Shown: piece after piece, positions 4,441 through 58,338 of the stretch
How the letters are laid out: every line of letters begins with the position of its first letter
Position numbering within the stretch: position 1 is the first letter of the stretch
Assembly: GCA_963971425.1 (NCBI GenBank)
Contig: OZ020517.1
Coordinates: 15,962,904 to 16,026,903, forward strand
Length of the DNA stretch: 64,000 bases
Direction: 5' to 3'
Origin: Bryoerythrophyllum caledonicum
Lineage: Eukaryota > Streptophyta > Bryopsida > Pottiales > Pottiaceae
Program-made: the position numbers and the translations under genes
The notes under the pieces: model-generated
The model's input: only the letters and a program-made list of their open reading frames with translations
Database searches by the model: none
What the model was told of the DNA's origin: nothing

Positions 4441-4444
4441 TTAA

Positions 4445-5360
4445 ACCCTAAATTTCTTTGACAATTTCACACAAAAAACACTCCAAGACGATCGATTCTA
4501 GTACAATGAGTAAAGAAGGAAACAAGAACTTTTATTTCTACTTTTTACCGTAGAATCTCAATGCAGACTTGTTGAATAACGTACTCGCAAATTTTCTTAA
4601 ACTTTGACCACAAGGATTTAAAGATTATATTGTTTGAAGTTGAAAAAACAATTCATTTTCTTCCCTACATTGAGTGGACCAACTGAGTTTAGCTTCACTT
4701 GCACTACAGTAGGCCTAAATTCATTACCATCATGTAAAGTGTAATATAATTTCTGTGTGCTCCAACTTTTAGAGGTAGAAAAGGGATGTAGCATATTTAA
4801 TAAATTGTGCAAGGAATGGAGGTTCCAAAACTGCCAATTCACGTCCTTTTTTTTGGTGAACTTGATATGTTTTAGAGTGATAATCCAAACAATCAATAAG
4901 AAGGTTTACACCACATCTTGTAGTAGGAAAAATATGATCATCACCAAGTTTTATTTGGCAAAGAAGAAGTTTTTATGGTACCTTACCTGAAAATGTGTGA
5001 CAATGTGTGAAAATGTTTGACTTGGAGTCATATGTTTTTTTTCATTGAAGACAAGAAATACTTTTTGACCATTTGAAAGGAGATATTATTATTTGCTAGT
5101 ATTGATAATCTCACATTCAAAAGAGTGTCCTAGCAAAAGTTTTTGGAGTTACCCAACGTGCCTGCACTCAAGAATTTTTTCTTTAAGATGGCATAATTTT
5201 TTTTCCATGGGCCCGATGCGAATAAAATTCATATTCCCATTTACCTCTTTTCTTCTTGCATCTTTTTACAAAATTTCATGAATTGTAAATATAAATTGCA
5301 ACCACAAAAACATGCCCAAGATCTACGAAAGCCCACCTCGGGTCTTTTGGCATTTAGAGG
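4445..5360. mobile_element. TTAA-flanked non-autonomous DNA element (CCCCTAAA family), diverged copy
   Basis: The element is bordered by TTAA at 4441-4444 and 5361-5364. The left terminus reads accctaaatttc and the right terminus, read inward, is cctctaaatgcc, a worn form of the family end CCCCTAAAGGACC. The interior holds family landmarks: GAGGTAGAAAAGGGATGTAGC, a GATAATCCAAAC box and the GTGTGAAAATGTTTGACTTG segment, also found in the 49642 and 56528 copies. It is about 916 bp and has no coding capacity. The short open frames inside are shadows. Confidence 0.75.
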
Positions 5361-5890: not shown

Positions 5891-5894
5891 ATAT

Positions 5895-5925
5895 AACACG
5901 CAATTAAGCAATTATGCACTTGGCC
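5895..5925 (+). repeat. left terminal inverted repeat of the 12.3-kb transposon
   Basis: A 31-bp sequence starting AACACGCAATTAAGC, identical to the reverse complement of 18180-18210. It is preceded by ATAT, the target duplication. The following bases (about 5926-6310) are homologous to the left end of the 34438 element. Confidence 0.93.
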
Positions 5926-6441
5926 TTTTAAAAGTGCACTTAGTGACAGCGGCGGCCAATGCGTTGGATCAAATTAAGTTTTGTTTCATTTCCTGATTTA
6001 AAAAAAAAAAATTAGGATCTGAGAACAATTTTCAATATAACCAAAAATGTTAATTCAATAAGTTTTTTTTTGGCATTTTTGACAAATTTGATATGGAACT
6101 TGGTTACAATTTGATAAATATTTGTTTCATACTTAATAGTATGTTTTTGGAAAGAAGCTTGTCAAGTAACTATACAAAGTATGCAATTATGTAAACTAAA
6201 ACACTGCGCAATGAATGGCAATTGATTTGAATATATTACTCATGGAACGTGATACTTAAGAAGAAGAAAATCAACATATTGCATATATTCTTGCACTTGG
6301 TGATGTAGTCAAACAATGGGAAAAACCTCTCGGATTTATTGGTCAATTGTTACCAAACGCCTTACATAACCAAGTGGAAGACTACTCTTGCATATATCCT
6401 ACATGCCAATCACCATACACTCATTGTAGTATACTCCTTTA

Positions 6442-9400
6442 CTACATATCATTCAAGGCTGCTTGCAACCGCTCATTGTCAATTGCTTCCGTTTGCATTG
6501 CAATATATTCTAGTATGTGAGCCTTAGCCGACTGAAAAATCCGAATCTTGCTTTCAACTTGCGATCCGAATATATTTCGCTTTCTCCTCCGGAAAGCGCT
6601 AGCCACTGTTCTTTCAGGTTCGTCTATCCACGAAAAGATGCATGCCTCTTTTTCTACCCAACTATGGCTCTCACACGTGGGCTCCCAAAATGCATCCATG
6701 CAATTTGCATATCGTTGTGCGGTGGACCCTGTTCTGTCAACATTTTCTCTTTGCATGATGGGCCAATACCAACAAACCTTCATTTTATGACTCCTTTGAT
6801 TTTTCCCATCTTCAATCACCTTCCCTACATAGAATGGTATACCACCTTCAACCTCAGCTCTATCAACACTCAGGGCTACAAATTGTCCACAATTAATATC
6901 TGATTGTGGATTGAATGGTGGAAACGGGTCGTGATTAACTTCATCCCCTGCTCCTTGTTCGATTCGTTCATGGTTGCGTTCCGTTCGTTGCGCCCTACGC
7001 ACTGCTTGATTCGATGGTCTTCCTCTACGCGGACCAAAATATCCTCGAGAGTCTGCATTTGGAAGTATAGCCACAATTTGGTCCACGACGGTTACTTCGC
7101 GATTTTCGTAGCCTGGGCCGTTGACTTCATCCAGTGAAACAGGTTCCGCAGTTGCGGTATTGGACACATCTGAAGGCCAAAACGGTAAAGAATGATGCTC
7201 GTTGCTACGGTCTTTGTGTGGAAATTTGGCTAAGTACAGTTTCAATTTCTCGGCCTCCACTTTAGCATCACGGTTCCTTTCCACATGTTGCAATCTTTCA
7301 ATGCACCTCTGTTTATAGGCAATGAAGTCATCCAACGCTTTTAGCTCCCGTTCGTCCGCTGCAAACACATTTGCGAACGCTGGTCGCTCATCTCTATTTG
7401 GCAGCGACCTCAAAGTCTTTGTTCCGCTCTCCGGTCCCCAAGCATCATTGCAGTAATGTTTGTGTTGCACTCGAACCTCGTGGGTCCCATTTCTATCATC
7501 TATATAGAATCGCATGTGGTGTGGAAATGTTATGCCAACCAATGAATCCGGACCTGTTAGTAGGTGGGGTGTTATGAACTGTTTCCAATCCCACACATTC
7601 TCTAACAACCGTGCCGTGACAAATGCCTCTGTAGGAGACGTTCCCCGTTCGATAAGGTTAAGCATTTCTTTTAAGGATTCCACGTCCGATCTCTTCAAAG
7701 TATTTGATATACAACTGAAGCGTTGATCAATATCTTCATGTGTATGGCCAACTATAAGGAATGAGAGTTCCACCTCTTGAAAAAATCCCAATCCCACCAA
7801 GGATGCGCATAGAGCAAACATATAGATGTTTTTATTCTCACGGGTGCAATTATCTGCTTGGATGCGCAATGTTGGTGGCAAAAATCCCTTCCTCCGCAAC
7901 ACGTCTCCAATCACATACAACAACGTGCTCACGACCTGGTTGCTGTCATGTTTGTGGTGAGCTCCAAACCATACGTCGCAATACAAACCGATTCCATGTA
8001 CTAGAGCCCCGCATAGATGGGTCTTCACAAACCGGTGTTCAATGTTCTTTACGGTTTGACGCATTCTTGGTACCATGGTTGTGTTTTGGTCCATGCCATC
8101 CACAATGATGCACATGTACAACTCAGGGTGGATATAACACGACCTCTTGAATATCCAATAATGCCTACGTTCCTCCATCTGGATGCGTAGATGCAACATA
8201 AACAATTCTTTGATCCTAATCCTTGCATCGGCATTGGTTGTGCCCTCCATAGCACATTTATATTCCCAACAATGATAACACTTTGAGAACCTTGAGAATG
8301 GTGGAACCTGGACATGGGGATATCTCAAACGCCACATCCTATGGAACGAGCTAATTGAAATGGTATCTCCATTGCATATTCTCTTCACCTCTTCATTCAC
8401 GTAATTGAATACGTCAAATTTTATTGTATTCATAGGAAGGAGAATAAGAGGCACCACTGTGTTGTCATCTTTACGGCAAATAGAACGATGAGGTTGAGGA
8501 CATCCAGCTTCTTCCACAAATGATTTGAAGCAAGCCTCCGCAGCAGACATTCTAGTGCTCTCTCTAATCGGATTCGATAGTGTGTTACCGTGGATTGCCG
8601 TCACTCTACCGTATATTAAACAATCTTTCTTCAACTCCTTAAAACGCCGTTGCGAATAACCAACCCCAAGAGCGTAGCAAGCATTGCAAACAGGCCTGCC
8701 ATCTAACTTCGTCTCAAATTTATCCCGACGAAATCCTTCCGTTCGTGTATAAAAAGAAACCAGCATTTGTCTTATCCATGTACTTCGGATTGAATACTCT
8801 GGTGCCCAAGCATTATATCGCATGTCTAAAATATGCCTTGCTGGAATGTCCCTCAAACAATTTTGCTTGCATCCTCCCTGTGCTATTGCCCTTTCCACGC
8901 CTGCCAAAGATACCTTACTTGCTGCAGTTCCTGTCACATTTGACTCGTTTGAAACTATCCTTCTTCTATTCTGCATAGAATAAGGTCGGCGCGCTCTTCT
9001 AACGTGAGCAAATCCCTCCACATGGGGCAAATCTCGAATGTTAGAGGGGGTGCATTGAGAAAATGGTGAACTCTCATCAACGGGGTTTGAAGTTTGGCTA
9101 CTCCATGGAGATCTTTCATTCAATTCAGGGGTGATAGATCGCCCTTGAACATCAAATCCTGGGGCCATTGTCCGTGTAGGTGAAATATGAGATCTATCTT
9201 CACCATGGGCATTTGGGAAATTAGGTGTTGTGGCCAAGTCACGAAGCAATGACCGGTTCCAACGAATGATCAGGTCCATACATGAACCAAGCCGTTCACC
9301 CACAACTTCTCCTGTCCAATGTAATGCATCGTCAACCCGAATTACACGCACTGCCACCTCAGATGGAAACATTCTACATCCATGCAATACCATTCCACTT

Positions 9401-9624
9401 TCAAAGGCATGCTCCCTTTTTCCCAAACCCACGACAATGCCTATTTTGGAGAGCAATTCTACAGTCCTTCCCGCTTCAAAATCACCTATCCCAACCGATC
9501 TCTCTTGAATTTGGCGCGCCCGTACTGCTCGTATCAACCGAGCCCCCACTGAACTATTAGGAAGGATATTTGATCTGCGAATGTTTGGAGGTTCTAAAGG
9601 AATCTGGGATGTTCCGCTTTCCAT
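6442..9624 (-). CDS. DDE-type transposase with DUF7869-like core (1060 aa)
   Basis: An uninterrupted 1060-codon frame that starts with ATG at 9624 and occupies the left part of the 12.3-kb element. Its order of motifs matches a transposase-like family seen mainly in corals, other metazoans and plants. A Cys pair (C252, C256) and a second pair (C313, C316) form a possible zinc cluster. The core follows: VDGMDQ with D509/D512, then QADNCTRENKN with D591, then FLIVGHTHEDIDQRFS with E630/D631/D633. Those spaced acidic residues are candidate RNase H-fold catalytic residues. A C-terminal segment (GQFVALSVDRAEVEGG...VCWYWP) looks like a BAH/chromo-type SH3 barrel. Its position just inside the terminal repeats supports a role in moving the element. 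The catalytic assignments come from spacing and conservation, not from experiment. Confidence 0.82.
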   Translation of the reverse strand: MESGTSQIPLEPPNIRRSNILPNSSVGARLIRAVRARQIQERSVGIGDFEAGRTVELLSKIGIVVGLGKREHAFESGMVLHGCRMFPSEVAVRVIRVDDALHWTGEVVGERLGSCMDLIIRWNRSLLRDLATTPNFPNAHGEDRSHISPTRTMAPGFDVQGRSITPELNERSPWSSQTSNPVDESSPFSQCTPSNIRDLPHVEGFAHVRRARRPYSMQNRRRIVSNESNVTGTAASKVSLAGVERAIAQGGCKQNCLRDIPARHILDMRYNAWAPEYSIRSTWIRQMLVSFYTRTEGFRRDKFETKLDGRPVCNACYALGVGYSQRRFKELKKDCLIYGRVTAIHGNTLSNPIRESTRMSAAEACFKSFVEEAGCPQPHRSICRKDDNTVVPLILLPMNTIKFDVFNYVNEEVKRICNGDTISISSFHRMWRLRYPHVQVPPFSRFSKCYHCWEYKCAMEGTTNADARIRIKELFMLHLRIQMEERRHYWIFKRSCYIHPELYMCIIVDGMDQNTTMVPRMRQTVKNIEHRFVKTHLCGALVHGIGLYCDVWFGAHHKHDSNQVVSTLLYVIGDVLRRKGFLPPTLRIQADNCTRENKNIYMFALCASLVGLGFFQEVELSFLIVGHTHEDIDQRFSCISNTLKRSDVESLKEMLNLIERGTSPTEAFVTARLLENVWDWKQFITPHLLTGPDSLVGITFPHHMRFYIDDRNGTHEVRVQHKHYCNDAWGPESGTKTLRSLPNRDERPAFANVFAADERELKALDDFIAYKQRCIERLQHVERNRDAKVEAEKLKLYLAKFPHKDRSNEHHSLPFWPSDVSNTATAEPVSLDEVNGPGYENREVTVVDQIVAILPNADSRGYFGPRRGRPSNQAVRRAQRTERNHERIEQGAGDEVNHDPFPPFNPQSDINCGQFVALSVDRAEVEGGIPFYVGKVIEDGKNQRSHKMKVCWYWPIMQRENVDRTGSTAQRYANCMDAFWEPTCESHSWVEKEACIFSWIDEPERTVASAFRRRKRNIFGSQVESKIRIFQSAKAHILEYIAMQTEAIDNERLQAALNDM

Positions 9625-10239
9625 CGATACTATTTGACAAATATAGACACGACAGTGGAAAAATTGTCAAAATATATATATATATTTTTAATTCAAAATC
9701 ATCATTCATCCATCCAATAGACTACTCACTGATAGACATATACTTATACTCTCACATGTAATGATTGATTATTTATAAGATTCACAAGCAGAGCTAATTG
9801 GACAAAATTGCAAGTTCAAGTGATCCAATGTAAAACACAATACATATGATACATCCAAATAACCATCATATCAGTATAAGAAGGTATTCCTGACCTGGAT
9901 TTTAATTGTGAGTATCAGAGGGCGTGGTACCGGAGTTCAACGTCGCTCTATATGACGATATCACCAATCAGTCTTCGTTGCTAAAACTTGTGCTCTTCTT
10001 TTCGTTCCAAAATCTTTACGACCTGACTATAACAAACACATTAGTGTCATTATATTATACATGATGAAAACAACCTAAAATCTTCGTATATCAACTCCTA
10101 AAATTCATTTACAATTTTACATTAAATATAAGTACTAATTGTTGATCCTACTCCAAAGTGTAAATTAGAAGTCAACAACATTTATTTGATGTCCTAATTA
10201 CTACATCTCAACAATGATCCATTGATCAATATAATTATC
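9625..10239. promoter_or_regulatory. upstream region of the transposase gene
   Basis: This 0.6-kb AT-rich stretch lies upstream of the transposase start on the minus strand and must carry its promoter if the gene is transcribed. A run of TA dinucleotides at 9671-9685 lies close to the start. No specific promoter element is convincing. Confidence 0.35.
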
Positions 10240-11300
10240 AAAAGGACATAAATGTTGGCCGTAGAGCTTAAAAGATTATAAGGTTTGAAGTTGAGGAAAA
10301 GATTCATTCTCATCCCTACTTTCAAGGTATAGGATCAAATTTGACTTCACTTTGTATTTCATTTTTGCACTAAAGAAAGTCTAAATATTCTATTGTTTTG
10401 TTAATAGTTTTTGTTAGTTCTTTAGAACCAAGTTTAAGTGGTAGAAAATAAAAGCGTATTACAAGAATAATGTGCAATGAATACAGATTCATTATTTGCT
10501 ACATCGTGATATATTACTTTGAAAATGATAATATGTTCTAGAATGACAATTGTATCGGTTAAGAAGAAATTTATCACTAATAAATATCAAAAATAGTAGA
10601 AGGGAATGCTTTGAAGATTTATAAGCTTTTTTTACTATAGAAGGTATGGTTTTTTCCAATCATTTTCCTGAAAACATTTGACTCAGATTTAGATCTATAT
10701 ACAATTAGAAATTCACACAAAATATAATAATTATTTTCTAGTCCATTCTAAAAGTCTTAATTTTCCTTTATGGATATCGAAAATCTTAATGGCAATAGAG
10801 AGTAATAGCAAAAGTTGTAAGTTCCAATATTAGGTATGGACTAACTTTCAAACCATCAACCCAAATACAATAATTTAAATACCTCCAAAAAATTGTTGTG
10901 AAGGACATTGTTATATTAAAATTTCAATGAACGTAAGTATCCTTAAGGAACAAACCCCTAAATTTCCAAGCCTTTTTCCATCAAGAAACACCCCAAAACT
11001 ACCACAACTAAAAAGTGGCAAAGCATCTAATTTTGACGTCTAATTGAAAAGAAATGAAAAATAACCAATTCACGTTTTACCATTTTTGTAACACAAATAT
11101 GGAATACTTTGATAATCCAAACGGTTGATTCTAAGGTTTTCACCACATATTGTGGTAAAAAAAATAATGGCAAAGACTTTGAAGATCTCTAGTTTTTATG
11201 TAGAAAACAAGTTTTTTTCCCCCTTCCTCAAAATGTCTAAAAATGTTCGACTTGGGTTAAAATGTACTTTTTACAGTAAACAATAAAAAATTTGGTAAGA
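10240..11300. repeat. two decayed TTAA-family copies inside the large transposon
   Basis: Positions 10240-10950 and about 10957-11300 contain family landmarks: a GGTTTGAAGTTGAGGAAAAG box, aacccctaaatttcc at about 10963, and a GATAATCCAAACGG box. The terminal TTAA borders are worn away. Either these inserted into an ancestor of the transposon or the transposon captured them. They have no coding capacity. Confidence 0.6.
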
Positions 11301-11309
11301 AAAAAAACG

Positions 11310-11460
11310 GTAATATTTATATGTATAAAAGTAGATTGTTTGACCATAAAATAATATTCTTTATATGTATAATAGTAGGGTGTTTGACCACAAGGTAATA
11401 TTCTTAAAAGAAGGTAATATTTTATACACGTATAAAAGTAGAGTAGTTAACCACAAAGTT
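11310..11460 (+). repeat. three-copy tandem repeat, about 50-70-bp unit
   Basis: Three imperfect units share TATATGTATAAAAGTAG followed by TTGACCAYAA. They lie in the intergenic part of the 12.3-kb element, upstream of the plus-strand gene. Function is unknown. Confidence 0.6.
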
Positions 11461-11749
11461 TAGAAATCCATATAAGGCAGCCGTTTCATAATAGTGAGTC
11501 TCTTTTTTACAATCATCCAAAGGTGAGCTCCACATATCATGTTTTTAGATGTTTTTAGATGGTCAAGATTTCTACTTCATCCTATCATGTTGTTCACTGG
11601 TTTTTATGTGATTGCAGGTTCAAAGCGGAGAGTAGCACGTCCTTTCTAAACTACTCAGGTGCACAATCATTCTAAACTACTTAGAATTTGATTTTGTTTG
11701 TGTTATATGCTGTGAACTTCAGTTTAGGGTTTAAGTTTGGGTCATCGAT

Positions 11750-11975
11750 TGGAAAACTTGAGACACTACATCTGAAAACCCTAATTATCTAAACTTTGTT
11801 GGCGATCTGGAAACCCTAATTTTTGGAACCCTAATTTCGGCGGCGCCGCCATTTTCATGGCTGGACTTCTCACCTCAGGGGGGTGCGTACGCGGGGGTGT
11901 CGTTAGCTTTCGATTAGTGTCTTAGGTTTTCAGCTAGGGTGTCTTAGGGTTTCTCCTAGGGTGTTTTAGGGTTTC
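11750..11975 (+). promoter_or_regulatory. telo-box-rich putative promoter/leader of the second transposon gene
   Basis: Several AACCCTAA motifs occur at about 11778-11835 and inverse TTAGGGTTT motifs at about 11943-11972. Telo-boxes are known in plant promoters and leaders, especially of genes active in dividing cells. The block is GC-richer than its surroundings and lies about 1.7 kb upstream of the 13610 start. A leader intron is therefore likely, with a possible acceptor gatcag|g at 13590. Confidence 0.4.
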
Positions 11976-11999
11976 ACCTCGAGAACAATGTGCGAGTGT

Positions 12000-12150
12000 A
12001 CAGCGTGTGAGTGAGTGAGTAACGCTCCAAGCTACGTGAACAACCTGTGAGTGAGTGAGTGAGTAACGCTCCAAGCTACGTGGAAAACCTGTGAGTGAGT
12101 GAGTGACGCTCCAACTCGCGTGAACAACCTGCGAGTAGATGAGTGAAGAA
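12000..12150 (+). repeat. tandem repeat, about 3.3 copies of a 45-bp unit
   Basis: The unit is roughly GTGAGTGAGTGAGTAACGCT followed by CCAAGCTACGTGAACAACC. The third unit is shortened and diverged. It lies between the two genes of the large transposon. Confidence 0.8.
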
Positions 12151-12542
12151 CGTGCAAAAAACCAACAAGGTACATGAGCAACTCGCAAGCAACATCACCA
12201 ACTTCCTAACGTCCTAACTAACCTACTGATCCTCTCTCCTCACTTCACCCTCATCTCTCTCCTTCTCTCTCCTCCATGTGCTGTGCGTATCGAAGTCGGT
12301 AGGATGACAACAACTAGGGTCAGAGCGACATTGGCAGTGTGGGCGGGCTAGGGTTTGGCGTCGGCAATGACGAGCGGGCTCAACTCTCTCACGGCCTGTG
12401 CGTACGCAGGGGGCTCTTCATCGTGCCGTTGCTCTTGGTTGATACCCCTTCCAGAGTCCATTGATACCCATCGTTTAGGCATATAACTGGTCATACCCTG
12501 ATCCAGTCGTATACCCGGTCAAACCTTGTATCGCTGTAAGGG

Positions 12543-12588
<46 letters not shown>
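12543..12588 (+). repeat. 46-base poly-A run
   Basis: An uninterrupted run of 46 A residues lies inside the intergenic part of the transposon. It could be the tail of an inserted retroposed sequence or simple slippage. No clear retroposon body or target duplication was seen next to it. Confidence 0.85.
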
Positions 12589-12591
<3 letters not shown>

Positions 12592-13074
12592 TTTTTTTTC
12601 CATAGATTTGGACGAAACTGAAATGCCTATAAGTAATTTTCAACAATTCAAAACAACTTGAATTTTTTTTCCCTTGTAGATTGAATCTGGAGGTATCATC
12701 CCAATTTTTTTCGGATTTTTTTGATTTTTTCTCTTTTTTCTAAAAATCCTCAAAGGTCGCTGAAATCACCATAGTGAAGATTTGCAGAATTTCTTCCGAT
12801 TTCGTAGATTCTGGCTCCAGCTCTAAATCTGAATTTGAGTCATTAACATGATATTTTGTGATTTTGAGTCCAAATAATGAAATGAAGTTTATGAAGCCTA
12901 CTTTCCATTCCAATTTGAAAATATGAAAAATTTGAAAACAATTCAAAAAAATTTGTATAAATTTTGTAAAAAAGTCCGGGCATACTTTAGTGGTTTATTT
13001 GCTGAAATTAGCCAAGTCCGTAATTCTTTAATTGCATATTAATTTCAGATTTAGAGCGGAAGCCACTTTTTGGC

Positions 13075-13262
13075 ATTTCATCCGCAAGTTTTCATCCACT
13101 GTTTTCATTCCTTTACTGGCATTTCATTCGTTGATTTTTTGCCTTTTCATCCGCTATGTTTTTGCCTCCTCATCCGTTGTTTTTACAAATTTCATCCGTT
13201 GTGATTTTCCATTAGCTGTGAATCGTCATCCTCAGTTTTCATCCGTGCTACGATTTTCATCT
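13075..13262 (+). repeat. cluster of TTTCATCCG-like motifs
   Basis: About eight copies of TTTCATCC(G/A) or close variants occur at irregular 20-30-bp spacing just upstream of the second transposon gene. The irregular spacing on one strand is unlike a simple tandem repeat and is compatible with a repeated protein-binding site. No binding protein is known. Confidence 0.55.
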
Positions 13263-13609
13263 TTTGTGGATGAAACTGTAATTTCCGCAGATTCACTTAA
13301 CAGTGAGTTAATAACTTCCAAAATAATAATTTTTTTGGAATTCCAACTTCGGATTTGAACTTTTTAGGTGTGTTTTCATCTAGTGTGAAAGAAAAAAATT
13401 CGGACTAATGATTTTAAAAATTGACATTTTGTAGAGTCTTAAAAATTAGGGGTTTACCTTTACAAGTCAAGGAAGCCACATTTGAGTTGTAACATGATGC
13501 TTTTGTGTATTTTTCTTAGAAGGTGTAAGCATTGATGTATATGAACATACACCGTATTGACGATTGTATATTGTTTGTGATTATGATCAGGTTTCTTGTA
13601 TGTGACATC

Positions 13610-16600
13610 ATGGCGCCACCACTTCCAATCGAAAGGCGCTGGGAGGAGTATGGTTGGTGGATTGCAGTAGAGGCAGAGTCGAAGCCAGTATTGTGGCTCA
13701 CGGAACATCCATTTCAAATAGGGATGCGCACATCAGCATTGGGGAAGCCCTTCGCTGAACTTCGTGGAATTAATCTTCGACCAGACGATATGGTCTATGC
13801 AGTTTGCGAACCGGGGGTTGGCCAAACGGCATCAAAGACTTCTCTTTCAAAGAAGTTGCTCCTAGCACCTGTTCCTACAGATCTCCTTCAAAATTCAAGG
13901 CGGGTGAATAACATAACCTCGTTACAGACGTTTTGGCTCAGCACGGATCTTGCGGTGCGCACTGCTAGGCATGAGCATGTGTTGGCATGTTTGGCGTTAT
14001 CTGAAGAGGATGAGGCACGCGCTAGAAGATTTATGAGTGCTCATACCATGTACGAGGCATTACGGCGGACGGAGCCAGAGCGTGCAAGTGTTGAGCGTGC
14101 AAGTCTACCAGCGGATCCAGAGGAGACCGAGCCCATTTATCGCGCATTAGCAAGGCCGACACAGTTGGATTGGCGGCCGTCCACTGAACTGCCACCATCG
14201 CGTGTTCGTGCACCAACAAGTGGTCGTCCATCTAAGCGCCCACGACGTGAAGAGGGCAACAGAGCTCCAGATTCTGATGGACGGCCGTCGCGTGGCCGTT
14301 CGGAGACATCGCGTGGCCGCTCAGAGACATCGTGTGGCAGGGCCTCGACATTGCGTGGCAGGGCATCGACGTCGCGAGGCAGGACATCGCCATTGCGTGG
14401 CAGGGGCCGTGAATCGATAGCTGGACAAGCCGAAACTCATCGTAGATCCTCAACATCTACAGCGGGTGTCTCTATGAGTTTATCGGCCATGGATGACGAC
14501 TTGCACAACTATTCTGATCAGTCATTGGGAGATTCGGAGGAGGAGGCTGACATTCCAGCAACCGTTCCAACTTCTAGGCATTTGAAAGCGCCCGTACCTA
14601 CGAAGGAGGAAGTTGCGAGAGGTTCCATATGGGGCGACATTGTGTTCAAGGCGCACATTGACCGCATCGTCGAAGTGGTGAATCCGGAGACAAACCATCG
14701 GATATTGTCACAGAAGAGGAAATCAGAAGTGTATCACTTCTTACGAGATCCCCAGAACAGGACCGGAGTGAGTAAATTGGTACTTCGTCCAATCCGGTAC
14801 CTCGTGGATATCACTACCGACACTGGCATGGTTGAACGTGAGGGAGTGGATTTCCCGGTTACTGGAGCAGCACGAGAGTTTGAACGGATGTTTTTAAGCC
14901 ATGCGGGTGCTTCTATACACGGTACTGCAGGCTCTCAACTATCTTGGCTTCAAGAGCGTATCATTTGGGAGCCTGTGGATGGGCAACACGTCGTAGCTGC
15001 TTCCAAGTATGCGAAGGAGCAGTGGATGAGCGGCAACATCCCTCTGTCTGAGTATCAGAAGACGTTTGAGGAGCGGGAGGCTACCTTTGTTGTGTACGAT
15101 GATCGACGACTTTACATTAACAAGTCAGTACAGGTCAATAATGCGGAGTGGCAAAGAAAACAACTTTCCACAATGAATGAGGATTTGGTGAAGCTCCGAC
15201 AGATATGGGATCTGTATGGTAGGCCTGATAGCTCGGTTCGGGCGGACGATGAACGCAGGGCTATCGCACTGGTGAGCGCAGCAAGTGCCGTGCGGAAACT
15301 GCCTCACAGAGATGACAACAAGATTACAATGTCCACATTGGCAAAGGTCATGGAGGACCTAACCAAGCATGCTTGGAATCCCAGCAATGAGTGCTTTGAA
15401 GCTGCCCTTCAAGTCAGCAAGGACTACGAAAACGGCTTCTTGTTTTACAACAAGGATGAGGAGAAGAGGTGGAAGGCTTTGGCACTGAAGAAGAACTTGG
15501 ATCCGAATGCAGATGTTCGACCGAGGCGGAAGCGGATGACCGGGCATTGGTTGAGGCCGCTTGGGAGACTTCCAGATTCGTACTATCTGGAGGTTGCAAA
15601 GGCATGTACAGCTAAGCCAGTAGGCGAGGATGGACGTAGACCTCGTCAAGCACTTTACTTCAACGGCGTTAAAGACCAAAATCCAAGGACTCGTACCCTT
15701 GCCGGTGTATGTGAGCGCATTATGAGACGAGAAGCGGTGATGAATACCATTCGGTGGTTGATGGTAGAGAACAAGGAATCTTCACCGAATTCCATGGAAG
15801 AGTTCTTTCATATATCTGTACGGAAGTATTTGCCAGGAGGCAAGGAGCAACTTGACAAATTTGCCGAGCTGTTGGATAGCAAAACAAGAACCAAATGGGG
15901 TGCGCCGCAGCGAGAGAAGGTGTCAAAGCTGAAAGACATAAGCGACCTCGTCCCTCCTTTCATCAAGGTACATTATCAGGTTGTTGCAGCAAAGGGGCAA
16001 GGCCAGAATGCACCATCCGTACGTGAGGGAGTTGCAAACACTGCCAATTGGGAGTGGCAGTTGCATGTTCGGAGGCCAGGCCAGAACGACACACAGGATC
16101 CGCTTCTGATTCGGTGTAGAAGAGGACTATTTCGTTCAGAGTATGCGGAGTTGACACGACCATACCTGTGGATTATTGATTGTCGCCGTGGCGGTGGAAG
16201 GCATGGCAACGGTCATTGGGAAGATGAACAATTCACCAGAATCTTTGCACAACTGGCATTATGGATGACGACCGTTGAACGATGGAACGTCATTTTCCTA
16301 TTACCACCGGCTGTGTTCGCCACGGAAGAGCTGATTACGAAGTTGAAGCTCCCGGAGGGTTGCTCTCATCGGCGTGGATGTTGGGCGTTTGGTCAGACCT
16401 TGGTTGATCATCCTCTGAACTTTACAGAGGGAGGGCGCTTACAACAAGCAGTTGAACCAATGGGCGATATCATTATTTGTCTCCAACATCCAGCTGGATT
16501 GTCTGTTGAGGCGAATTTTATTACTGGCCGCCGTCCACTTCCTCTTTTATTTGATGATAACCGTGGCGGAGCACGAGAGCCTTCTGCTGTTGATGCTCTC

Positions 16601-17620
16601 GAGAGATCTCCATCTGAGTTATCAAGACTGGTGGGTTCGTACTTGCCTCGGGGTTGGGGTTTGGTGGTATGTAACATGTCAACAGCGATTCCAACTATAC
16701 TACACTCGGATTTCCAGGGATCTGAGATCATTGTCATCGACGATTGCAGCGAGAGGATTTCGTTCTTGTACGGTGAGTTGACCAACAACTTCCAAGGGCA
16801 TTTGTTGATGTCTAACAACATCGATGGAACGGACAATGCTCCCACTAGTGTGGATGCTACCGAAGATGCGATTCCTTTACGAACGGAAGGTGACGATGAT
16901 GTGGATTTCTACACCCATTTGAACGAAAGATTGCCACGTGAATATGGGACGGACGAATCCACGCCTGACAACCGCTCGCTCGACTCGCAACGAAGCAGTG
17001 AAGCAGAAGAAGGGGAAGACGAGGAGGACGATGAAGAAGAAGACGAAGGTGAAGATGGGGGAGCACCTAGGAGAGACGTGGTTCTAACAACGCCGCCGCC
17101 GCATGTGGGAGTTTGTGTACATGAGACACCTGTTGGAATGGGGGATGATACTAGGGTACTGGATGTTCCTTCAGAGGCACCAACAGATGGGATGAACACA
17201 TCCATTTCTCAGCTGTCAGAATCAGAGCAGTGTACGACCGATTCTCTCATGTTTTTTTCGGAGTTGAGTAGGGGTGGACAGTCTTTGGGGCCTACTCCAT
17301 CAGAGCTTGGATCTGCGACACATGGGAGCGCTGAAGGTATTGGAGGTGGCACTGGACCAATATTGCCATCTGTTTCAAGACAGAGCGAACCGGAAGATGT
17401 TGCTGAATTTCGAGAGACCTTCACTGCACCGATGACATTTAGAGATGGCTTCTATTATGATGCAGATGGCGTAAGGCACACGCGGCACGGCGACCCTGGC
17501 AGCTACAGATATGAACAGTCTACATCAGTCAGTCTTGGAGATAGTCCGGTGCGAGAAGAGGAGTTGGCTGAAATGGTAAATACTGCCATGGAACACGCTA
17601 CGGGAGTAATATCTCCATAG
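13610..17620 (+). CDS. second protein of the 12.3-kb transposon (1336 aa), possible methyltransferase-like fold
   Basis: The frame is open from 13532, but the first convincing start is ATG at 13610 (MAPPLPIERRWEEYGWW), just after a possible splice acceptor at 13590. Residues about 225-268 form an Arg/Gly/Ser-rich repeat (SRGRSETSRGRSETSCGRAS) encoded by a short tandem array. The middle is Lys/Arg-rich. Residues about 850-1060 alternate strands and helices in the order of a beta-class DNA amino-methyltransferase: LWIIDCRRGGG (D857) where DPPY would sit, WNVIFLLPPAVF, then SPSELSRLVGSYLPRGWGL followed by VVCNMST where FxGxG would sit. The key catalytic and cofactor residues do not match, so activity is doubtful. 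A strongly acidic tract (EGEDEEDDEEEDEGED) follows at about 1130-1160. I recognise no family with confidence. Its size and integrity, and its place inside the TIRs, suggest an accessory role in transposition or chromatin targeting. Confidence 0.7.
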   Translation: MAPPLPIERRWEEYGWWIAVEAESKPVLWLTEHPFQIGMRTSALGKPFAELRGINLRPDDMVYAVCEPGVGQTASKTSLSKKLLLAPVPTDLLQNSRRVNNITSLQTFWLSTDLAVRTARHEHVLACLALSEEDEARARRFMSAHTMYEALRRTEPERASVERASLPADPEETEPIYRALARPTQLDWRPSTELPPSRVRAPTSGRPSKRPRREEGNRAPDSDGRPSRGRSETSRGRSETSCGRASTLRGRASTSRGRTSPLRGRGRESIAGQAETHRRSSTSTAGVSMSLSAMDDDLHNYSDQSLGDSEEEADIPATVPTSRHLKAPVPTKEEVARGSIWGDIVFKAHIDRIVEVVNPETNHRILSQKRKSEVYHFLRDPQNRTGVSKLVLRPIRYLVDITTDTGMVEREGVDFPVTGAAREFERMFLSHAGASIHGTAGSQLSWLQERIIWEPVDGQHVVAASKYAKEQWMSGNIPLSEYQKTFEEREATFVVYDDRRLYINKSVQVNNAEWQRKQLSTMNEDLVKLRQIWDLYGRPDSSVRADDERRAIALVSAASAVRKLPHRDDNKITMSTLAKVMEDLTKHAWNPSNECFEAALQVSKDYENGFLFYNKDEEKRWKALALKKNLDPNADVRPRRKRMTGHWLRPLGRLPDSYYLEVAKACTAKPVGEDGRRPRQALYFNGVKDQNPRTRTLAGVCERIMRREAVMNTIRWLMVENKESSPNSMEEFFHISVRKYLPGGKEQLDKFAELLDSKTRTKWGAPQREKVSKLKDISDLVPPFIKVHYQVVAAKGQGQNAPSVREGVANTANWEWQLHVRRPGQNDTQDPLLIRCRRGLFRSEYAELTRPYLWIIDCRRGGGRHGNGHWEDEQFTRIFAQLALWMTTVERWNVIFLLPPAVFATEELITKLKLPEGCSHRRGCWAFGQTLVDHPLNFTEGGRLQQAVEPMGDIIICLQHPAGLSVEANFITGRRPLPLLFDDNRGGAREPSAVDALERSPSELSRLVGSYLPRGWGLVVCNMSTAIPTILHSDFQGSEIIVIDDCSERISFLYGELTNNFQGHLLMSNNIDGTDNAPTSVDATEDAIPLRTEGDDDVDFYTHLNERLPREYGTDESTPDNRSLDSQRSSEAEEGEDEEDDEEEDEGEDGGAPRRDVVLTTPPPHVGVCVHETPVGMGDDTRVLDVPSEAPTDGMNTSISQLSESEQCTTDSLMFFSELSRGGQSLGPTPSELGSATHGSAEGIGGGTGPILPSVSRQSEPEDVAEFRETFTAPMTFRDGFYYDADGVRHTRHGDPGSYRYEQSTSVSLGDSPVREEELAEMVNTAMEHATGVISP

Positions 17621-18179
17621 GATGATGAAGACTCTGAGGTCATACCGTAGCTAAGCATACATAATGTTTAGGTGACTAGTACAGTGTGATTGGTATATTT
17701 GCTTTAGAGACGGTTTGTTTGATTGTAGTATATGATCTTTGTAGTATTCAATAGTTATATCATGTATGGTTTTATATATATGAAAAATATAGAGTTCTAA
17801 ACCTCACACTTCATCATTGTATTGCGTGCTTTATCATTACATCTCCTACAAATTGTATTTGTAACACGACACTAATATTTATTTAAATTCATATAAAATT
17901 TATTTCATGCAACAAATTGTATATGAATAGTTTCTTGTAAGTACATGGTCAATGTAATATTGTCAATGGAATAAAAATGAAATACCATAATCATATATTA
18001 TGCATAATCTTACCGAAATGGTGAAAATGATTTACTTGTGTACACATTGAGAAACCAATATTCAATGAAATTGTCACAAAAATATAGCAAAAAAAAATAG
18101 GGATTGTTGGATTTTTTTTCCTTCCAGAAGACATTTCCGCTCAAAATCTTGTTGTTATTGAGCGCCAATTAGCGCACTT
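17621..18179. other. right subterminal region of the 12.3-kb transposon
   Basis: A 3' flank of the second gene containing AT-rich DNA with likely polyadenylation signals. Segments near 17935-18010 resemble 36150-36240 in the 2.0-kb relative, for example AAGTACATG followed by CAATGT. It ends in AGCGCCAATTAGCGCACTTGG next to the terminal repeat. Confidence 0.6.
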
Positions 18180-18210
18180 GGCCAAGTGCATAATTGCTTA
18201 ATTGCGTGTT
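18180..18210 (-). repeat. right terminal inverted repeat of the 12.3-kb transposon
   Basis: A 31-bp sequence ending GCTTAATTGCGTGTT, the exact reverse complement of 5895-5925. It is followed by ATAT (18211-18214), which matches the bases before the left end. Confidence 0.93.
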
Positions 18211-18394
18211 ATATGAGGATTGATTTGAGACCATTGGATTTCAATAAAGGCTCCCAAAATCTTTAAAAAAAAAACATATCAATTTTACTATTTAGAATAA
18301 CTTACTCTAAAATATACTTTCAAACCTTGTTTCTCAACAAGAATATAAAACTTTCCACAAAAACAACTACTTAAGATTCCATACCATACCTTTA

Positions 18395-21131: not shown

Positions 21132-23807
21132 ATGAAAGGGACATCCAAGTGCCTAGCAGTAACAGCAACCGTCTGGATGAGCTTCTGTTTGATAGCAGGT
21201 AAGACATAGTTTCGCCACCTTGTACTGCACAATTTTTGCAAGCCGTTCCAAAGCATCATGAATTTCAGTTTTATTTCCAATTTCATGTCAATCTTTCTAA
21301 TGCTTTCCTCAAGGTTTCTTGACAGGTGACTAAATTTCTTTATGTGAACAGATTGTTATGATCCTTTGGACCCAAATGGGAATATCACAATAAAATGGGA
21401 TATAAACTCATGGACATCGGAAGGCTATGTTGTAAGTTTCTTCTTCAGATAACCCCCTCACCCTTCAAAGGCACATGAAAGACACGGTAGCTGCACAATC
21501 ACAAATTTCTAATGTTCTTTATTTGTTGCTGCAACCAACCTCTAAGTCGTGCAATGGTCTAGGGATTCGTCCAAGAAGTCATTCGATAGTTGAGCATCAT
21601 GCAAGCTCTTTCCAGTGCCACTTAGATTATATTGTAATAATTATGGTCAAAGTATGTTCTATGTTTTTGGATACCAAGAATCGAATTTATATATTAGTCT
21701 AGAGCTAACGAGTTACTCGAAAATGGTCACAGGCAACCGTGACCATTTTCAATTGGCAGCAGTACCGGCATATATCCACCCCTGGTTGGAAACTGGGTTG
21801 GGAGTGGACAAAGAAGGAGGTGATATGGAACATGGCTGGAGCACAAGCAACTACTCAAGGCGACTGTTCTGCTTACCATAGCGATCCTATTCCCCATTGC
21901 TGTGCCCCTAATCCTACTGTTGTGGATCTTCTACCGGGTGTGCCCTACAATCAACAAGTGTCAAATTGCTGCAGAGGCGGAGTGATCTCATCTTACTCTC
22001 AGGATCCACAGACTGCTTTATCCGCCTTCCAAATTACTGTTGGGCATGCTGGGACGACAAATACTACTGTCGCGTTGCCGGTGAACTTCACTTTGATGAC
22101 CCCTGGACCTGGATATTCTTGTGGACCTGCAACCAACGTTCCTGCTAGCCAGTTCCCTTCGACGGACAAAAGGAGGGTTACCCAAGCTTTCAGTAAGTGC
22201 ACACTACCTGTTTCGCATTGGTGGCATAAATTAGTGTTCCATTCAGATATTACTTTGTCTCGTCCTTGTTTTAGGCCAGCTTTACATATCTGTGCCGAAA
22301 GGATCTACGCAAACGGACCATATTGCACTGAGTTTCGTTTCCTGTTGGCTGAGTAACATGGTACTTACTTTATAATAATGCTACCTTTTGAAATATGATT
22401 TCGTTGCTTGATGTTGTGCTTCCAGTATGAAATATATTTTCTTCAAATCCATTAAGCACGTTTAAAACACGTATAAAAGCTTGAGTCTGAAAGAATGAAG
22501 CCGGAAGAAAATCAACAATTATGATCAATGCCCTTGGCTTAGGCATCACTCAAAATGGAGAAACATAATAAGAATAATTCTGCAGGAAATTTAATTGAAT
22601 ACAAGAATTGAGAACAAGGATGAGCAGAGTCAGGGTAATTTTTCTTTTATCCATTCTCAAGTACTGTAGGACACAGTAACATTGGCATGGGCTGACTCCG
22701 ATTCTAGTTTCCATGATAACATCTGAATCTTTGGAATTCGTTGTTTGCAGTGACATGGAACATTACGTGCACATACTTGCAAAACCTAGCTCAGAGGGCG
22801 CCAAGCTGCTGTGTCTCTTTCTCGACATTTTACAACTCTCGAGTCACTCCTTGCGCAGAGTGCGCATGTGCTTGCCCATCCAACTCCACAATGACTGCTA
22901 TGAGCGGAGCAGCTCAGTCTCCAAATACCTGCATCGATCCGTAAGGATGCTCATTTCTAACTATGTTCTAACCTCACTGATGTGTTGTACATGAAAGTAT
23001 TGATGTGTGACATGACGTTTTATATTGTGGTCACTGGTTTGGCGAACATGAAACGTTCCTGATACATTGAAGAATTGGTCATCTGCATTTCAAATAAAAA
23101 GGACGTCTGATAATCGATTCTACTGAAGAAAAGTGGCTCTGACGTGCAGGAACACTGAATATGACGACCTTCCAGCAATGAGCACAGGGGACAGCAGCAT
23201 TGAAAAATCCAGTCAACCGGACCTTCTGTATTGCACCAGGGACATGTGTCCGGTCAAAATCCATTGGCATATCAAGACCAATTACAAAGAATACTGGAGA
23301 GTGAAAGTCACAATCACCAACCGCAATTTTTCTCGCAACTTCACGCAGTGGACATTGACTCTTCAGCATCCAAACTTTGACAACTTCACCGAAGCTTTCA
23401 GCTTCAACCACAAGGGATTAAATCCTTACGGAATATACAGCAGTAAGTGCCTGATCAGATTCGTTTCTTTCTTGTTTAATCTAATTAGAAAACTTACTGA
23501 TATGTGTTGAATGCTTGCAGACGACACGGCTGTCTTTTGGGGCATAAAGTACTTTAATGACATGCTCATGCAAGCCGGACCCTCTGGAAACGTGCAGTCC
23601 GAACTCCTGTTCGCGAAGGGAAAGGACTTCAAGTTCAGCAACGGGTGGGCGTTTCCGCATCGTGTCTACTTTAATGGAGACGACTGCGTGCTTCCTGAAC
23701 CCCAAGACTACCCGACCTTACCCAACAGCAGCCCTCGCCTCATCACAGGTCGAGTTTCCCTCGCATTGCTCGTAGCATGTCTTTCATTGTTTGCTATGTT
23801 TGTGTAG
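21132..23807 (+). CDS. COBRA-like GPI-anchored cell-wall protein (six exons, 458 aa)
   Basis: The exons are 21132-21198, 21352-21431, 21733-22192, 22751-22940, 23150-23442 and 23521-23807. All junctions are GT-AG and the summed length (1377 nt) keeps a single frame. The protein begins with a signal peptide (MKGTSKCLAVTATVWMSFCL). It then has the COBRA start DCYDPLDPNGNITIKWDI, GYVATVTIFNWQQYRHISTP, the diagnostic Cys-rich CCVS motif at residues 222-225, MCPVKIHWHIKTNYKEYWRV, and FWGIKYFNDMLMQAGPSGNV with GWAFPHRVYFNGDDC. It ends in NSS plus a hydrophobic tail, the layout of a GPI-attachment signal (omega site about 432-434). COBRA proteins bind or organise crystalline cellulose at the plasma membrane/cell wall and control oriented expansion. 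Length matches the family (about 450 aa). No break is seen; this is the one clearly functional host gene in the window. Confidence 0.95.
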
Positions 23808-28187: not shown

Positions 28188-29589
28188 TCCCTAAAGGACC
28201 AAGACTTGTGCTTCACCAAAACCACGCCAAATCTGCCACTTTGGAATGAGATATTATCATACTTATTCAAACCATTTTTTTCTACTTTCATTTGTTGGAT
28301 CTTCGAGATAACTACTACCAAAAGACACCCTAAACTTTTTATAAGCTTTGACGATACGGATTGAACAATATATGCATTTGTAGAGTGCAAAATCGATTTT
28401 TCCACGGTGCCCAAATAGGGCGAGCGTACTGACTCAAGATAATGGCATAATTTCCCACTACATATTGCATAAACTCAATGGATCTACATTCTACCCAGTG
28501 TATGGTCATTGCATGCCAAAAATCACAAGTATTGAAGGTGATTACAATAAGAAAAATGGACCCGTAACAACTAGGGGTATAGAAAGTGACCCTTTACGTA
28601 GGAAATAAATTATTTCTCTATATAGAGAATAATTGTTGGATCTAAAATCCAAACGGTGAATAGAATTGTCATGACTTATTCTAACTATAGAAGAAGAAAA
28701 GTTTTAAAAAAAATCTTAACTTCTATCCATCTTAAAGTGAAAACAATGAAGGTTACCAAGAACTTCTCTTCACCCTAGTAGAGGCACCCCATTCCAATTG
28801 CTTAAGCCAATTTGGGAATCAAATGACATTGTATGTCAAAAAACATTCATAGAAAAAGATGCGGAATAAGGAATGAGACTCAACAAATATTTTTTCAAAT
28901 CTAATCACAAAGATATGGAGTTGATATAGAATTTAAAAGCCCAAAAACCACTGGAGCCCCTAATCAAACTGTAGAGTAGGTGAGATTTGGTGCCTTCCTT
29001 TGCCCAATGCCAACAAGTGAGAGTGAGTAAAAGAGAGGAGACATGCCATGGATAACCAGTTCTGGAGGGTATCCAATACCGATTGGCCTTGTTCGACTTT
29101 TGAGGTAAGGCCACCAATGAGAGTTCAATTGAGGTGGAGCACCCAAAATTGCACACTTCATGACCCAATGCTAATAATAACTGGTGTTTTCAGATTTTGA
29201 GATATCAGTTTCGGGTCGCTTCATGCATCATTTCATGCATTTACCATTTTCATGCCATGCCATGCATACTCTACTGATCGGAATTGGGTGGCCAATTGAA
29301 ATTAGGTGCCTCTGCCTTACTACCCACCTAAAAAAAGTGCAATTGTCAACTCAACAAAGTACTATTCATCTTTGTATATTTTGTCCAGGTACCAAAAGAG
29401 TCAAGCTTTTATGTTTGAGCACCATAACTTTTTCTTGTAAATCCAAAAATGGAAAGAAAAAATCTCATCAAAGATAACCCGTATTCCTATTCTCAGTCAA
29501 AAATTTTAAGAAGTTATCTTGAAAAAAGGATTTCAAGGAACCTCCCAAAATCGATTTGTTCCCTGCATGTACAAATGGTCCTTTAAAGG
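28188..29589. mobile_element. TTAA-flanked element of the CCCCTAAA family, carrying a nested MITE
   Basis: TTAA lies at 28184-28187 and 29590-29593. The left terminus is TCCCTAAAGGACCAAG and the right terminus, read inward, is CCTTTAAAGGACCATT. Removing the nested 28781-29313 insertion leaves about 870 bp, close to the family length. The right TTAA is shared with the next element, so two copies are joined head to tail at one target. Confidence 0.7.
28781..29313. mobile_element. about 530-bp MITE (GAGGCACC ends), nested
   Basis: The ends are GAGGCACCCCATTCC at left and AATTAGGTGCCTC at right, an inverted repeat. The body is an inverted copy of 58743-59273; both share CCATGGCATGTC-type and GAGGTGGAGCA blocks in opposite orientation. 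It interrupts a TTAA-family element. Confidence 0.72.
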
Positions 29590-29593
29590 TTAA

Positions 29594-30043
29594 CCCCTAA
29601 AAGCCCAAGGCATTTTCCCTCAAGAAACACTCCACAACTGCCACTATCAACAAGTGACAAGAAAATCTAATTTTGACGTACAATTTTGGACTTTTAACCA
29701 TAATATCTTAAAAAAGACTTCTATATAAACTTATCATACTTTTTTTGGCTACAATCCACTTCACCGATATCAAGATTATAGCATCTGAAGTCAAGAAATT
29801 GGTTCATTTTCTTCCCTCCGTTGAGTGAATTGGTACGCTTGGACTTCACTTGGTGTAATAATTTTCCACTATACAAGGTCTATTTTTTTACCATTGTATT
29901 AAGCATGATATAAGTTCCGGGCATGGTCTTAGTAGTGGAACGAACAGACACTTTATTCACGCCGGCCTCCTTCAGAGGCCGGCGTTCCTCTTCTTTTGAT
30001 ATAAGTTCCTTGTCCACCAATTTTAAGAGGTAAAGAAGAGGTG
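29594..30043. mobile_element. truncated TTAA-family element interrupted by a LINE tail insertion
   Basis: It starts CCCCTAAAAGCCCAAGG directly after TTAA at 29590-29593 and follows the family interior (CCGATATCAAGATTATAGC, then TTGGTTCATTTTCTTCC). It is split at 29918/29997 by a 78-bp LINE-derived insert. It resumes through the GAGGTAAAGAAGAGGTGTAGC box and then stops at about 30043, where a larger LINE fragment begins. Confidence 0.7.
29919..29996 (+). mobile_element. 78-bp LINE 3'-end insertion with 13-bp target duplication
   Basis: Flanked by the direct repeat TGATATAAGTTCC at 29906-29918 and 29997-30009. The insert matches the 3' end of the LINE at about 56176-56258 (AGTAGTGGAACGAACAGACA, CTTTATTCA, GCCGGCCTC, TTCTTC tail). 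Extreme 5' truncation and a 13-bp duplication are typical of target-primed reverse transcription. Confidence 0.85.
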
Positions 30044-34084: not shown

Positions 34085-34939
34085 TGCGGAGCTACTCCTT
34101 TTTCATCTAAACATTCCACTAGAGGTGTAGCATATTCAAAACAAGTGTGCAAGATGTGGAGGTTCCAAATTTGCCAATTCGCATTTTATTTTATTTTGAA
34201 CTTAACATGTTTAAAAATGACAATCCAAACAATAAATAAAAAGGTTATTACCACGCATTGTTGGCAGAAAAATAAAAAGTGAAAAACATGAAGTTCTCTA
34301 GGTTTTATGTAGAAAAGAAGAATTTTTTCTAGTACCTTGTCCGACAATGTGTGAAAATGTTTGACTTGGATAAAATTATATTTTTACACTAAAGACAAGA
34401 ATTTTTTGATATGTTCAAAGAAGGTTCTATTTTCTATAACATGCAATTAAGCAATTATGCACTTGGTCATTTAAAAGTGCACTTAGGAACCACGACGGCC
34501 ATGGCGCACCAAAAATCCCACATTTGAAATTTTCTTGTCAATTTTGAAAAAAAATTAGAGTTCTTGGATCAATATTGTGTGCAATTAAAAATGTCAATTT
34601 AACAAGATGTTAAATTGTTTTTTCAACAAATTTTTAGTGGAACGTCGTTGAACTTTGATAAATGTCTATTTAATATCATTGTACAAAATTTTGTGAATAG
34701 CTTATAAGGATTGTAATGTAGAAAATATGCAATCATCCAAACAGAATTGCCAATTGATATGAAGAAATTCCACATGGTGCATGATACATAAGAAGAAGAC
34801 AAAAAAATGAAGGTATTTATACATGCACTTAGTGATGTAATTAATCAATAGTAAAAACTTATAGCATTTATTATTTACATAGTGTGCCTACACTATACAT
34901 TATATTTAAAGTAGTACTAAAATTCCACTCTTTATATGT

Positions 34940-35750
34940 ATAGCGGGAAGAGAGTAGGAAATGAGAGGAGGGGTACGGGAGAGGAAAGAGGCTCCGAGTT
35001 TAGGATTGGTGGTGTTAGGTTGAGGATGGCCGCGGGCTTAGGGTTTTAGGGGTTTAGGATTCTGCGGATTTGGGGCAACGGCATCAAGTTTAGGACTCTA
35101 GGGGTGTGCGCACGCACACCTGTATGGAGGTGAGAGGGGAGAAGTATGAGGGAGGGAGTGTGAGCGGTAGCGGATTAGGGTTCTTTAGGGGTGGAGTCGC
35201 GGCGAGATTTAGGACTCTATGGATGTGTGTGCGCACACTCGTACGGAAGAGGTGAAAGGGGACTGTGTGAGGGGAGGAGGTGTGAGCGGAGAGAGGGTGT
35301 AAGCTACGGTGTAGGGTTTGAGGTGGGGAGAGAGGGCTTGAGCGGCAGAGGGGAGAGGCTATGAGTGGCGGAGGAAAGAGGCTGTGAGCGGGGAGAGGGA
35401 TGAGCGGCAATGTAGGGTTTGAGGTGGGGAGGGAGGGTTTGAGCGACGGCGGGAGAGGGTGTAGGGTTTGAATTGGAGGGAGAGGGCTTGAGCGGCAACA
35501 TGGAGAGGGTTAGAGCAGTGGCAAGGAGAGGAGAGAGGGTTTGAGCGGCTGTGGGGAGGGCTGTCAGCTGTGTGGAGAGGAATGAGGGTTTGAGCGGCCG
35601 CGGGAAGAGTGTGTGAGTGGTGGAAGAGAAGAGTTTGAGCGGTGGAGAAACATTGGAAGGAGACCTGCAGCTCAACACCGCCCAAAACCACAACCGCCAG
35701 AACCTCCAGGGTGTATGCGCGCACACCCCGCACACACATATCCGCCCTAG
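34940..35750 (+). repeat. G-rich irregular tandem repeats in the non-autonomous element
   Basis: Many copies of GGTTTGAGCGGC-like words are separated by GGGGAGAG runs, and purines dominate the plus strand. Three segments centre on alternating GTGTGCGCACGCACAC-type sequence (about 35103, 35225, 35705). The proline/serine-rich open frames on the minus strand are artefacts of this composition. Confidence 0.75.
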
Positions 35751-36279
35751 ATTTAAATTAATAATAAATAAAAATATAGAAAATTAATGCTCGTAGGCGA
35801 GAGGCCCCCAAGTTCTCCGCGGGCTTCGCAAGGCGAAGCCAAGAAGAGCTAGGAAATTTCAACCTAGTTCCCTTGGTCACCCATCCGAGTCCTATTCCTT
35901 CACCATCCCGCTTAACTTGAAGGGTACTCAACTACCTCCAACCGGCTTCTACTAGCCTTGGTGATGTTCAAGGCTTGGAAGTTAATATTTTTACACTTAA
36001 TGTTTTGTTTCACAAATGGTTTGTTGCACTCACATCAAGGTATGGTATTTCATTATATGATAGTACAAATATGTAAAAAACAATGAATCACCAAAGTATT
36101 GGAAGTGATACACAACTAATATTGTCTTATGTTTCTAGATGTATGTATAGATTTTAAGTACATGAACAATGTCGTTTCCAAAAAAACCAAAAACCAATTT
36201 AGTAATCATGTATTATACATAAGTTCAAAACAATAGTTATCATATATTTTGCATATTATTCACGTACGTACACATATAT

Positions 36280-36330
36280 AACGCAATATGTAACGCAACA
36301 TGTAACGCAACATGTAACGCAACATGTAAC
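36280..36330 (+). repeat. tandem repeat of GTAACGCAACAT, about 4 copies
   Basis: Four 12-bp units (GTAACGCAACAT with slight variation) lie about 140 bp inside the right terminus of the 2.0-kb element. Subterminal repeats of this kind are often transposase-binding sites in other DNA transposons; a role here is inference. Confidence 0.75.
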
Positions 36331-36729
36331 ACAACAAACACAAAAAATTAATACAAAAGAGTTAGTAAGATTTTAGCATTTAAAAAAAAATTGGGTAAAA
36401 AATCTTCTAGTTTTTGAGTGCCAATTAGTGCACTTGGCCAAGTGCATAATTGCTTACATGCGTGTTCTATATGTATGAAAAATCTCAATGTCAATAGAAG
36501 CTTCAAGAAAACGTTTTAGAGCTACCAAGAGTCCCCAATTTGATTTTGAAGGCTAATTACTTTCATATTATGAATCCAAAAATATATTTTTTAAGTATTC
36601 CACAAAGATATTATTAAGGACAATCTAGTCTAAAAAATTCAAAAGGAAAAGATTTTTTTTGAATTTTAGGTGCTTGTTCAAAATGAGAAACATTTTCCCA
36701 TGGTTGAATGGGCTCTTAGGAGTGAAATC

Positions 36730-56500: not shown

Positions 56501-56527
56501 ACCTCCAAATACATTCCTCCAACTTAA

Positions 56528-57448: not shown

Positions 57449-57452
57449 TTAA

Positions 57453-58334: not shown

Positions 58335-58338
58335 TTAA

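Follow-up and report, generated by a model that had tools for sequence, protein, structure and literature searches.

A two-gene DNA transposon of Bryoerythrophyllum caledonicum that duplicates 4 bp of its target, probably a variant of the Sola type

Sola transposons produce 4-bp target duplications, encode a DDD transposase and end in terminal inverted repeats (TIRs) of 11-1124 bp; most of them measure 2-9 kb and some more than 15 kb, and they have been reported in a moss and are apparently uncommon in flowering plants (PMC10741241). Sola1 of Physcomitrella is tabulated in another report and is found in Capsicum too (PMC9033089), and in bivalves the curated Sola1 consensus sequences have a mean length of 5,445 bp (PMC10294476). 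In two social amoebae, Fanzor1 is carried by Sola2 elements; those of one amoeba have a transposase of 888 aa and duplicate AWWT, those of the other produce the 4-bp duplications ATAT, AAAT and ATTT (ATAT being included in Polysphondylium) (PMC3627910). Among the other superfamilies, Kolobok and piggyBac duplicate TTAA, and KolobokP combines a transposase with a His-Me finger nuclease encoded on the complementary strand (PMC9587614); Ginger has TG...CA ends and TIRs of 40-270 bp (PMC10741241), while KDZ, Plavaka and other fungal transposons carry TET/JBP cargo (PMC12730594).

The window analysed here, a stretch of 64,000 nucleotides, contains an element of 12,316 bp at positions 5895-18210. 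Its left TIR (5895..5925, plus strand) is the inverse of its right TIR (18180..18210, minus strand) over 31 bp with 0 mismatches, as a preliminary description of this DNA had claimed, and the termini begin with AACAC. Within the window four sites match the element end with at most 3 mismatches, compared with a mean of 0.00 in 100 shuffles. The sequence ATAT flanks the element on both sides (5891..5894 and 18211..18214), and together with it the inverted repeat reaches 35/35 bp, a pair expected within 19 kb about 3e-12 times from base composition. The preliminary description had taken this ATAT as a 4-bp target duplication; it is indeed present on both sides, but since ATAT is its own reverse complement the 12.3-kb copy by itself fits a duplication of k=2 as well as k=4. 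When the flanks of this copy were joined in a search for an empty site, no match in the window spanned the junction.

Because of this palindrome, the length of the duplication is fixed by a second, 2-kb copy alone. This copy lies at 34438..36466 (2,029 bp), has ends with 2 mismatches each and is bordered by CTAT at 34434..34437 and at 36467..36470. The relative had already been invoked as support for a duplication of 4 bp, and it provides it: CTAT/CTAT is unambiguous, and k=4 is the sole fit among k from 1 to 8. The 2-kb element is inserted in a repeat that is common within the window. Its empty sites were searched for by joining its flanks with one CTAT and comparing the product with the window, counting matches at E up to 1e-5 that extended at least 10 bases beyond the junction on each side and excluding the flanks themselves. 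The insert is missing in 5/5 of these matches. The best three, at 59887-60432, 56879-57410 and 50210-49674, are ungapped at the junction with 76-77% identity; the two weaker ones lie at 4787-5153 (69% identity) and at 11110-11330 (70%, with a 3-base gap beside the junction and a match that stops 10 bases past it).

The likeness of the two elements continues inward of the shared end and keeps the proper order, left resembling left and right resembling right. The left subterminal region of the 12.3-kb element (5895..6340, plus strand) is 67% identical to that of the 2-kb relative over about 450 bp, and the right one (18143..18179) gives 89% over 72 bp, a comparison that includes the 31-bp end and the flanking 4 bp. 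No coding relic of either gene of the large element was recognisable in the 2-kb element, the best match having an E of 0.47 over 17 residues. The 2-kb element is thus a non-autonomous relative and no recent simple deletion derivative of the 12.3-kb copy. Degenerate direct repeats, rich in G, form an array in its interior (35089-35650).

The 31-bp ends, the flanking ATAT, the CTAT/CTAT of the relative and its empty sites together support the conclusion that 5895-18210 is a TIR DNA transposon which carries two genes and duplicates 4 bp of its target; the boundaries first proposed for it are correct and the finding is sound. Divergent repeats, of a single family or of several linked ones, fill much of the window (4441-5330, 28791-30040, 34119-34437, 49637-50570, 56524-57453 and 58334-60957); fragments of them are found also inside the spacer of the 12.3-kb element and around the left flanks of both elements. 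The window also holds LINE-like retrotransposon pieces with endonuclease and reverse transcriptase domains (48927-49751 and 51817-52368) and, at 21832-22356, a fragment of a gene like COBRA, a plant family (E=1.7e-40), which is in line with a plant host. Scans of the window with Rfam at the gathering threshold and for tRNAs returned nothing.

The two genes of the element are divergent. Gene 1 (6442..9624, minus strand) encodes 1060 aa. Gene 2 (13535..17620, plus strand) encodes 1361 aa if the first ATG is taken as its start and 1336 if the ATG at 13610 is. Both are uninterrupted over the 1060 and 1336 codons originally reported, and both far exceed the open frames of 200 mononucleotide shuffles of the 12.3-kb element, where the longest stop-free run was 222 codons. 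No further copies of either gene were found within the 64-kb window.

Gene 1 matches the Pfam family DUF7869 at residues 531-713 (E=4.5e-51, 173.6 bits with a cut-off of 26), and nothing else in Pfam matches the whole protein, even with E allowed up to 10. Of the families for which the preliminary description had proposed profile searches, DUF7869 is thus matched by gene 1, whereas the KDZ domain, for which Pfam includes a model, is matched by neither protein. Searches of gene 1 against NCBIfam, PHROGs, PADLOC and PDB sequences returned no matches. For the pieces of gene 1 outside the core, the only Pfam rows were two sub-threshold ones in the C-terminal piece: Herpes_UL56 at E 4.7 and Neuromodulin_N at E 5.3. 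We took both as chance. Candidate acidic residues are D509/D512, D591 (in QADNC) and E630/D631/D633 (in GHTHEDID), the last two motifs being, we assume, conserved in the DUF7869 family; D509, D591 and D631/D633 are placed in DUF7869 and just before it and form a candidate triad. An AlphaFold model of the core (residues 419-728) had a mean pLDDT of 35.5, too low for an RNase H fold to be read from it. Because a DUF7869 protein sits between the ends of the element, we read gene 1 as a putative transposase, in which DUF7869 would likewise be responsible for catalysis. The open-access literature searched contained no mention of DUF7869, and no link of the family to Sola or to transposition was found in this analysis.

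Relatives of gene 1 or gene 2 were absent from IMG/VR, phages and plasmids, and those of gene 1, the only one of the two searched there, from the GTDB genomes; these collections consist of viruses, plasmids and prokaryotes, and the result therefore says little about plants. The element ends were not found in IMG/VR either. A degenerate pattern, GHTH[ED]D[IV]D, matched 4 virus contigs, none of them convincing as carrying a relative of gene 1 (best E 2.6), and a search for the DUF7869 family in one virus record and 14 control genomes, an uninformative scope, gave no match.

Gene 2 has no match at E up to 10 in Pfam, which includes TnpB/Fanzor models, either whole or as three pieces covering residues 26-1106, and no family match in NCBIfam, PHROGs, PADLOC or PDB sequences. 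Within residues 181-320, R accounts for 19% and S for 16%, and the protein ends in an acidic tail (1101-1361) with 23% acidic residues over the last 261. From this residue composition and from its setting inside the element, the product is probably an accessory, nuclear protein with a candidate role in association with nucleic acid or chromatin; no relative of gene 2 was found, and any service of it to the transposon is putative.

We also considered whether the C-terminal part of gene 2 is a degenerate beta-class DNA amino-methyltransferase, an idea that came by eye from the sequence IIDCRRG, which resembles motif IV, and from a helix-strand pattern further on, read against what we take to be the methyltransferase motifs. 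This candidate was rejected. A profile for N6/N4 amino-methyltransferases, built from YhdJ and 12 phage enzymes, gave no match there: hmmsearch scored whole gene 2 at 0.5 bits (E 0.016, single target), with the best domain at -0.4 bits in residues 612-654, outside the suspected part, and hhalign of residues 781-1110 with the profile gave a probability of 0.4%. Residues 787-1106 had no match among PDB sequences at E up to 10. The single-sequence model of residues 805-1100 reached a mean pLDDT of 38.5, and nothing was read from it; a PDB fold search with this low-confidence model found nothing at E<=0.001, the best match having an E of 5.7e-3, and the best 50 of its 217 rows were topped by acetyltransferases and included no named methyltransferase.

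The reading that we prefer, with a probability of roughly 80%, is a two-gene cut-and-paste TIR transposon that works in a Sola-like manner, has gene 2 as an accessory gene and has moved its 2-kb relative in trans. According to this proposal, the DUF7869 protein of gene 1 would bind the 31-bp ends, excise the element and insert it at target cuts staggered by 4 bp, which would give rise to the 4-bp target duplication; the accessory protein of gene 2 would travel with the element, and the 2-kb element at 34438 would be mobilised in trans by the transposase of the 12.3-kb element or of a sister. Autonomy of the 12.3-kb element is plausible, and it may still be active at present. The reading is favoured by the ends and duplications of both elements, the empty sites of the 2-kb copy, the DUF7869 match with its acidic residues, the length and higher GC of both genes and the agreement with printed Sola traits. 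Counting against it, neither gene recurred in the window or in the collections searched, which contain no plants, no match spanned the joined flanks of the 12.3-kb copy, and DUF7869 was linked neither to Sola nor to transposition.

A variant of this reading concerns the history of the element. Between the divergent genes lies a spacer of 3.9 kb (9625..13534) with a GC content of 34% (0.34, versus 0.45 for gene 1 and 0.51 for gene 2), which contains fragments of the window repeats at 10137-10577 and, with short breaks, at 10953-11288. At 13010..13040, on the minus strand, it holds a degenerate copy of the element end that faces the same way as the right end and matches at 24/31 bases; about 500 bp separate it from the start of gene 2 downstream. 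Once this site and the four true ends are masked, no site in the window exceeds 19 matches, and 24 matches were reached in 0/400 second-order Markov windows (the best had 23, once). A 25-nt inverted repeat of 88% (12812-12836 / 13041-13065) has its right arm starting directly after the internal end.

It is possible, if rather doubtful, that the ancestor was a one-gene transposon of about 7.1 kb, running from 5895 to 13040, which gained gene 2 by using the distal right end at 18210 while the old end decayed. The orientation of the internal end and its agreement at a level that the simulated windows did not reach speak for such a composite origin, as do the motif GCTAATT, common to the internal end and the right end inward of the end across a 9-base gap, and the GC content of gene 2, unlike that of gene 1. 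A parallel exists in one amoeba, whose Sola2-Fanzor elements have a common 5'-terminal 7 kb and unrelated 3' parts (PMC3627910). Against it stand the single copy, with no 7-kb element seen, the narrower margin of the gapped local match of the internal end (a score of 18, where the highest of 5 shuffles was 16) and the weak likeness to the right end beyond the 31 bp. No internal left end pairing with 13040 appeared in the searches of the window for further ends. The internal end may be a former right end, but it may also be what remains of a small nested relative, or a putative self-regulatory binding site in front of gene 2. A broader version of the same idea, in which DUF7869 provides the catalysis in a modular plant transposon lineage and a 7-kb transposase module, bounded by a right end of its own, grew to 12.3 kb by gaining a 1361-aa accessory factor of a new type through a distal end switch, seems to us improbable, though it is worth stating.

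With respect to the superfamily, the size of the duplication alone would permit Kolobok, piggyBac or Ginger in place of Sola. We consider this very unlikely: the duplications here are ATAT and CTAT and not the TTAA of Kolobok and piggyBac, the AACAC termini and 31-bp repeats differ from the ends and the TIR length of Ginger, and in Pfam the whole gene 1 protein matched nothing but DUF7869 at E up to 10. For Chapaev, Academ and CMC, considered as well, the comparison extended to this Pfam scan. Hardly any weight falls on the idea that there is no single element and that unrelated host genes are flanked by chance by two small non-autonomous elements or by stray ends, which draws on the finding of ends without genes in the 2-kb element, so that ends and genes are separable, but conflicts with outer ends that are identical to each other, share the same outside 4 bp and are each unlike the ends of the 2-kb element, with left and right subterminal regions that match that element in order, and with a DUF7869 protein just inside the ends.

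DUF7869, a Pfam family of undescribed function, gains here a physical setting between the matched ends of a family with a proven 4-bp duplication, and this setting makes its role as a transposase directly testable. Gene 2 is an orphan whose 1361 codons are open within a mobile element. From the internal end, a concrete model can be drawn for the way in which transposons take up cargo genes.

Compared with the described systems, KolobokP resembles this element in having two proteins on opposite strands, but its target is TTAA and the proteins of the 12.3-kb element have no nuclease match. KDZ and Plavaka share with it the combination of a transposase and an additional cargo protein, although neither protein here has a TET/JBP or KDZ family match in Pfam. 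No plant transposon of similar two-gene make-up was present among the matches listed, which came mainly from open-access literature.

Sola itself comes closer. The 4-bp target duplication (CTAT/CTAT with empty sites, and ATAT/ATAT, which k=2 fits as well), the TIR of 31 bp, the length of 12.3 kb and the occurrence in a plant all fall within what is described for Sola, while a printed counterpart of the second gene was not found among the matches listed. The preliminary description had called the size of the element unusual and had not associated a giant accessory gene with Sola. The first point stands in part: some Sola elements exceed 15 kb (PMC10741241), but 12.3 kb is still large, because the bivalve Sola1 mean is 5,445 bp (PMC10294476). 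As to the second, an additional protein, Fanzor1, is in print for Sola2 elements (PMC3627910); both features are on record for Sola and are less surprising for that. The Sola2-Fanzor elements differ from ours in their TIRs (12-13 or 21 bp, against 31 bp) and in the nature of the second protein, which is Fanzor1 there, whereas gene 2 has no TnpB/Fanzor match in Pfam. They resemble it in having a second protein beside the transposase and AT-rich 4-bp duplications with ATAT included, and their conserved 7-kb 5' part with differing 3' parts recalls the composite model. We therefore favour the Sola lead, the kinship being drawn from printed traits (duplication size, end length and element size). 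A variant of a known transposon group is more likely here than something wholly new, although the new branch suggested in the preliminary description is conceivable, and the element, likened to Sola by the printed descriptions, is probably a Sola-type transposon variant.
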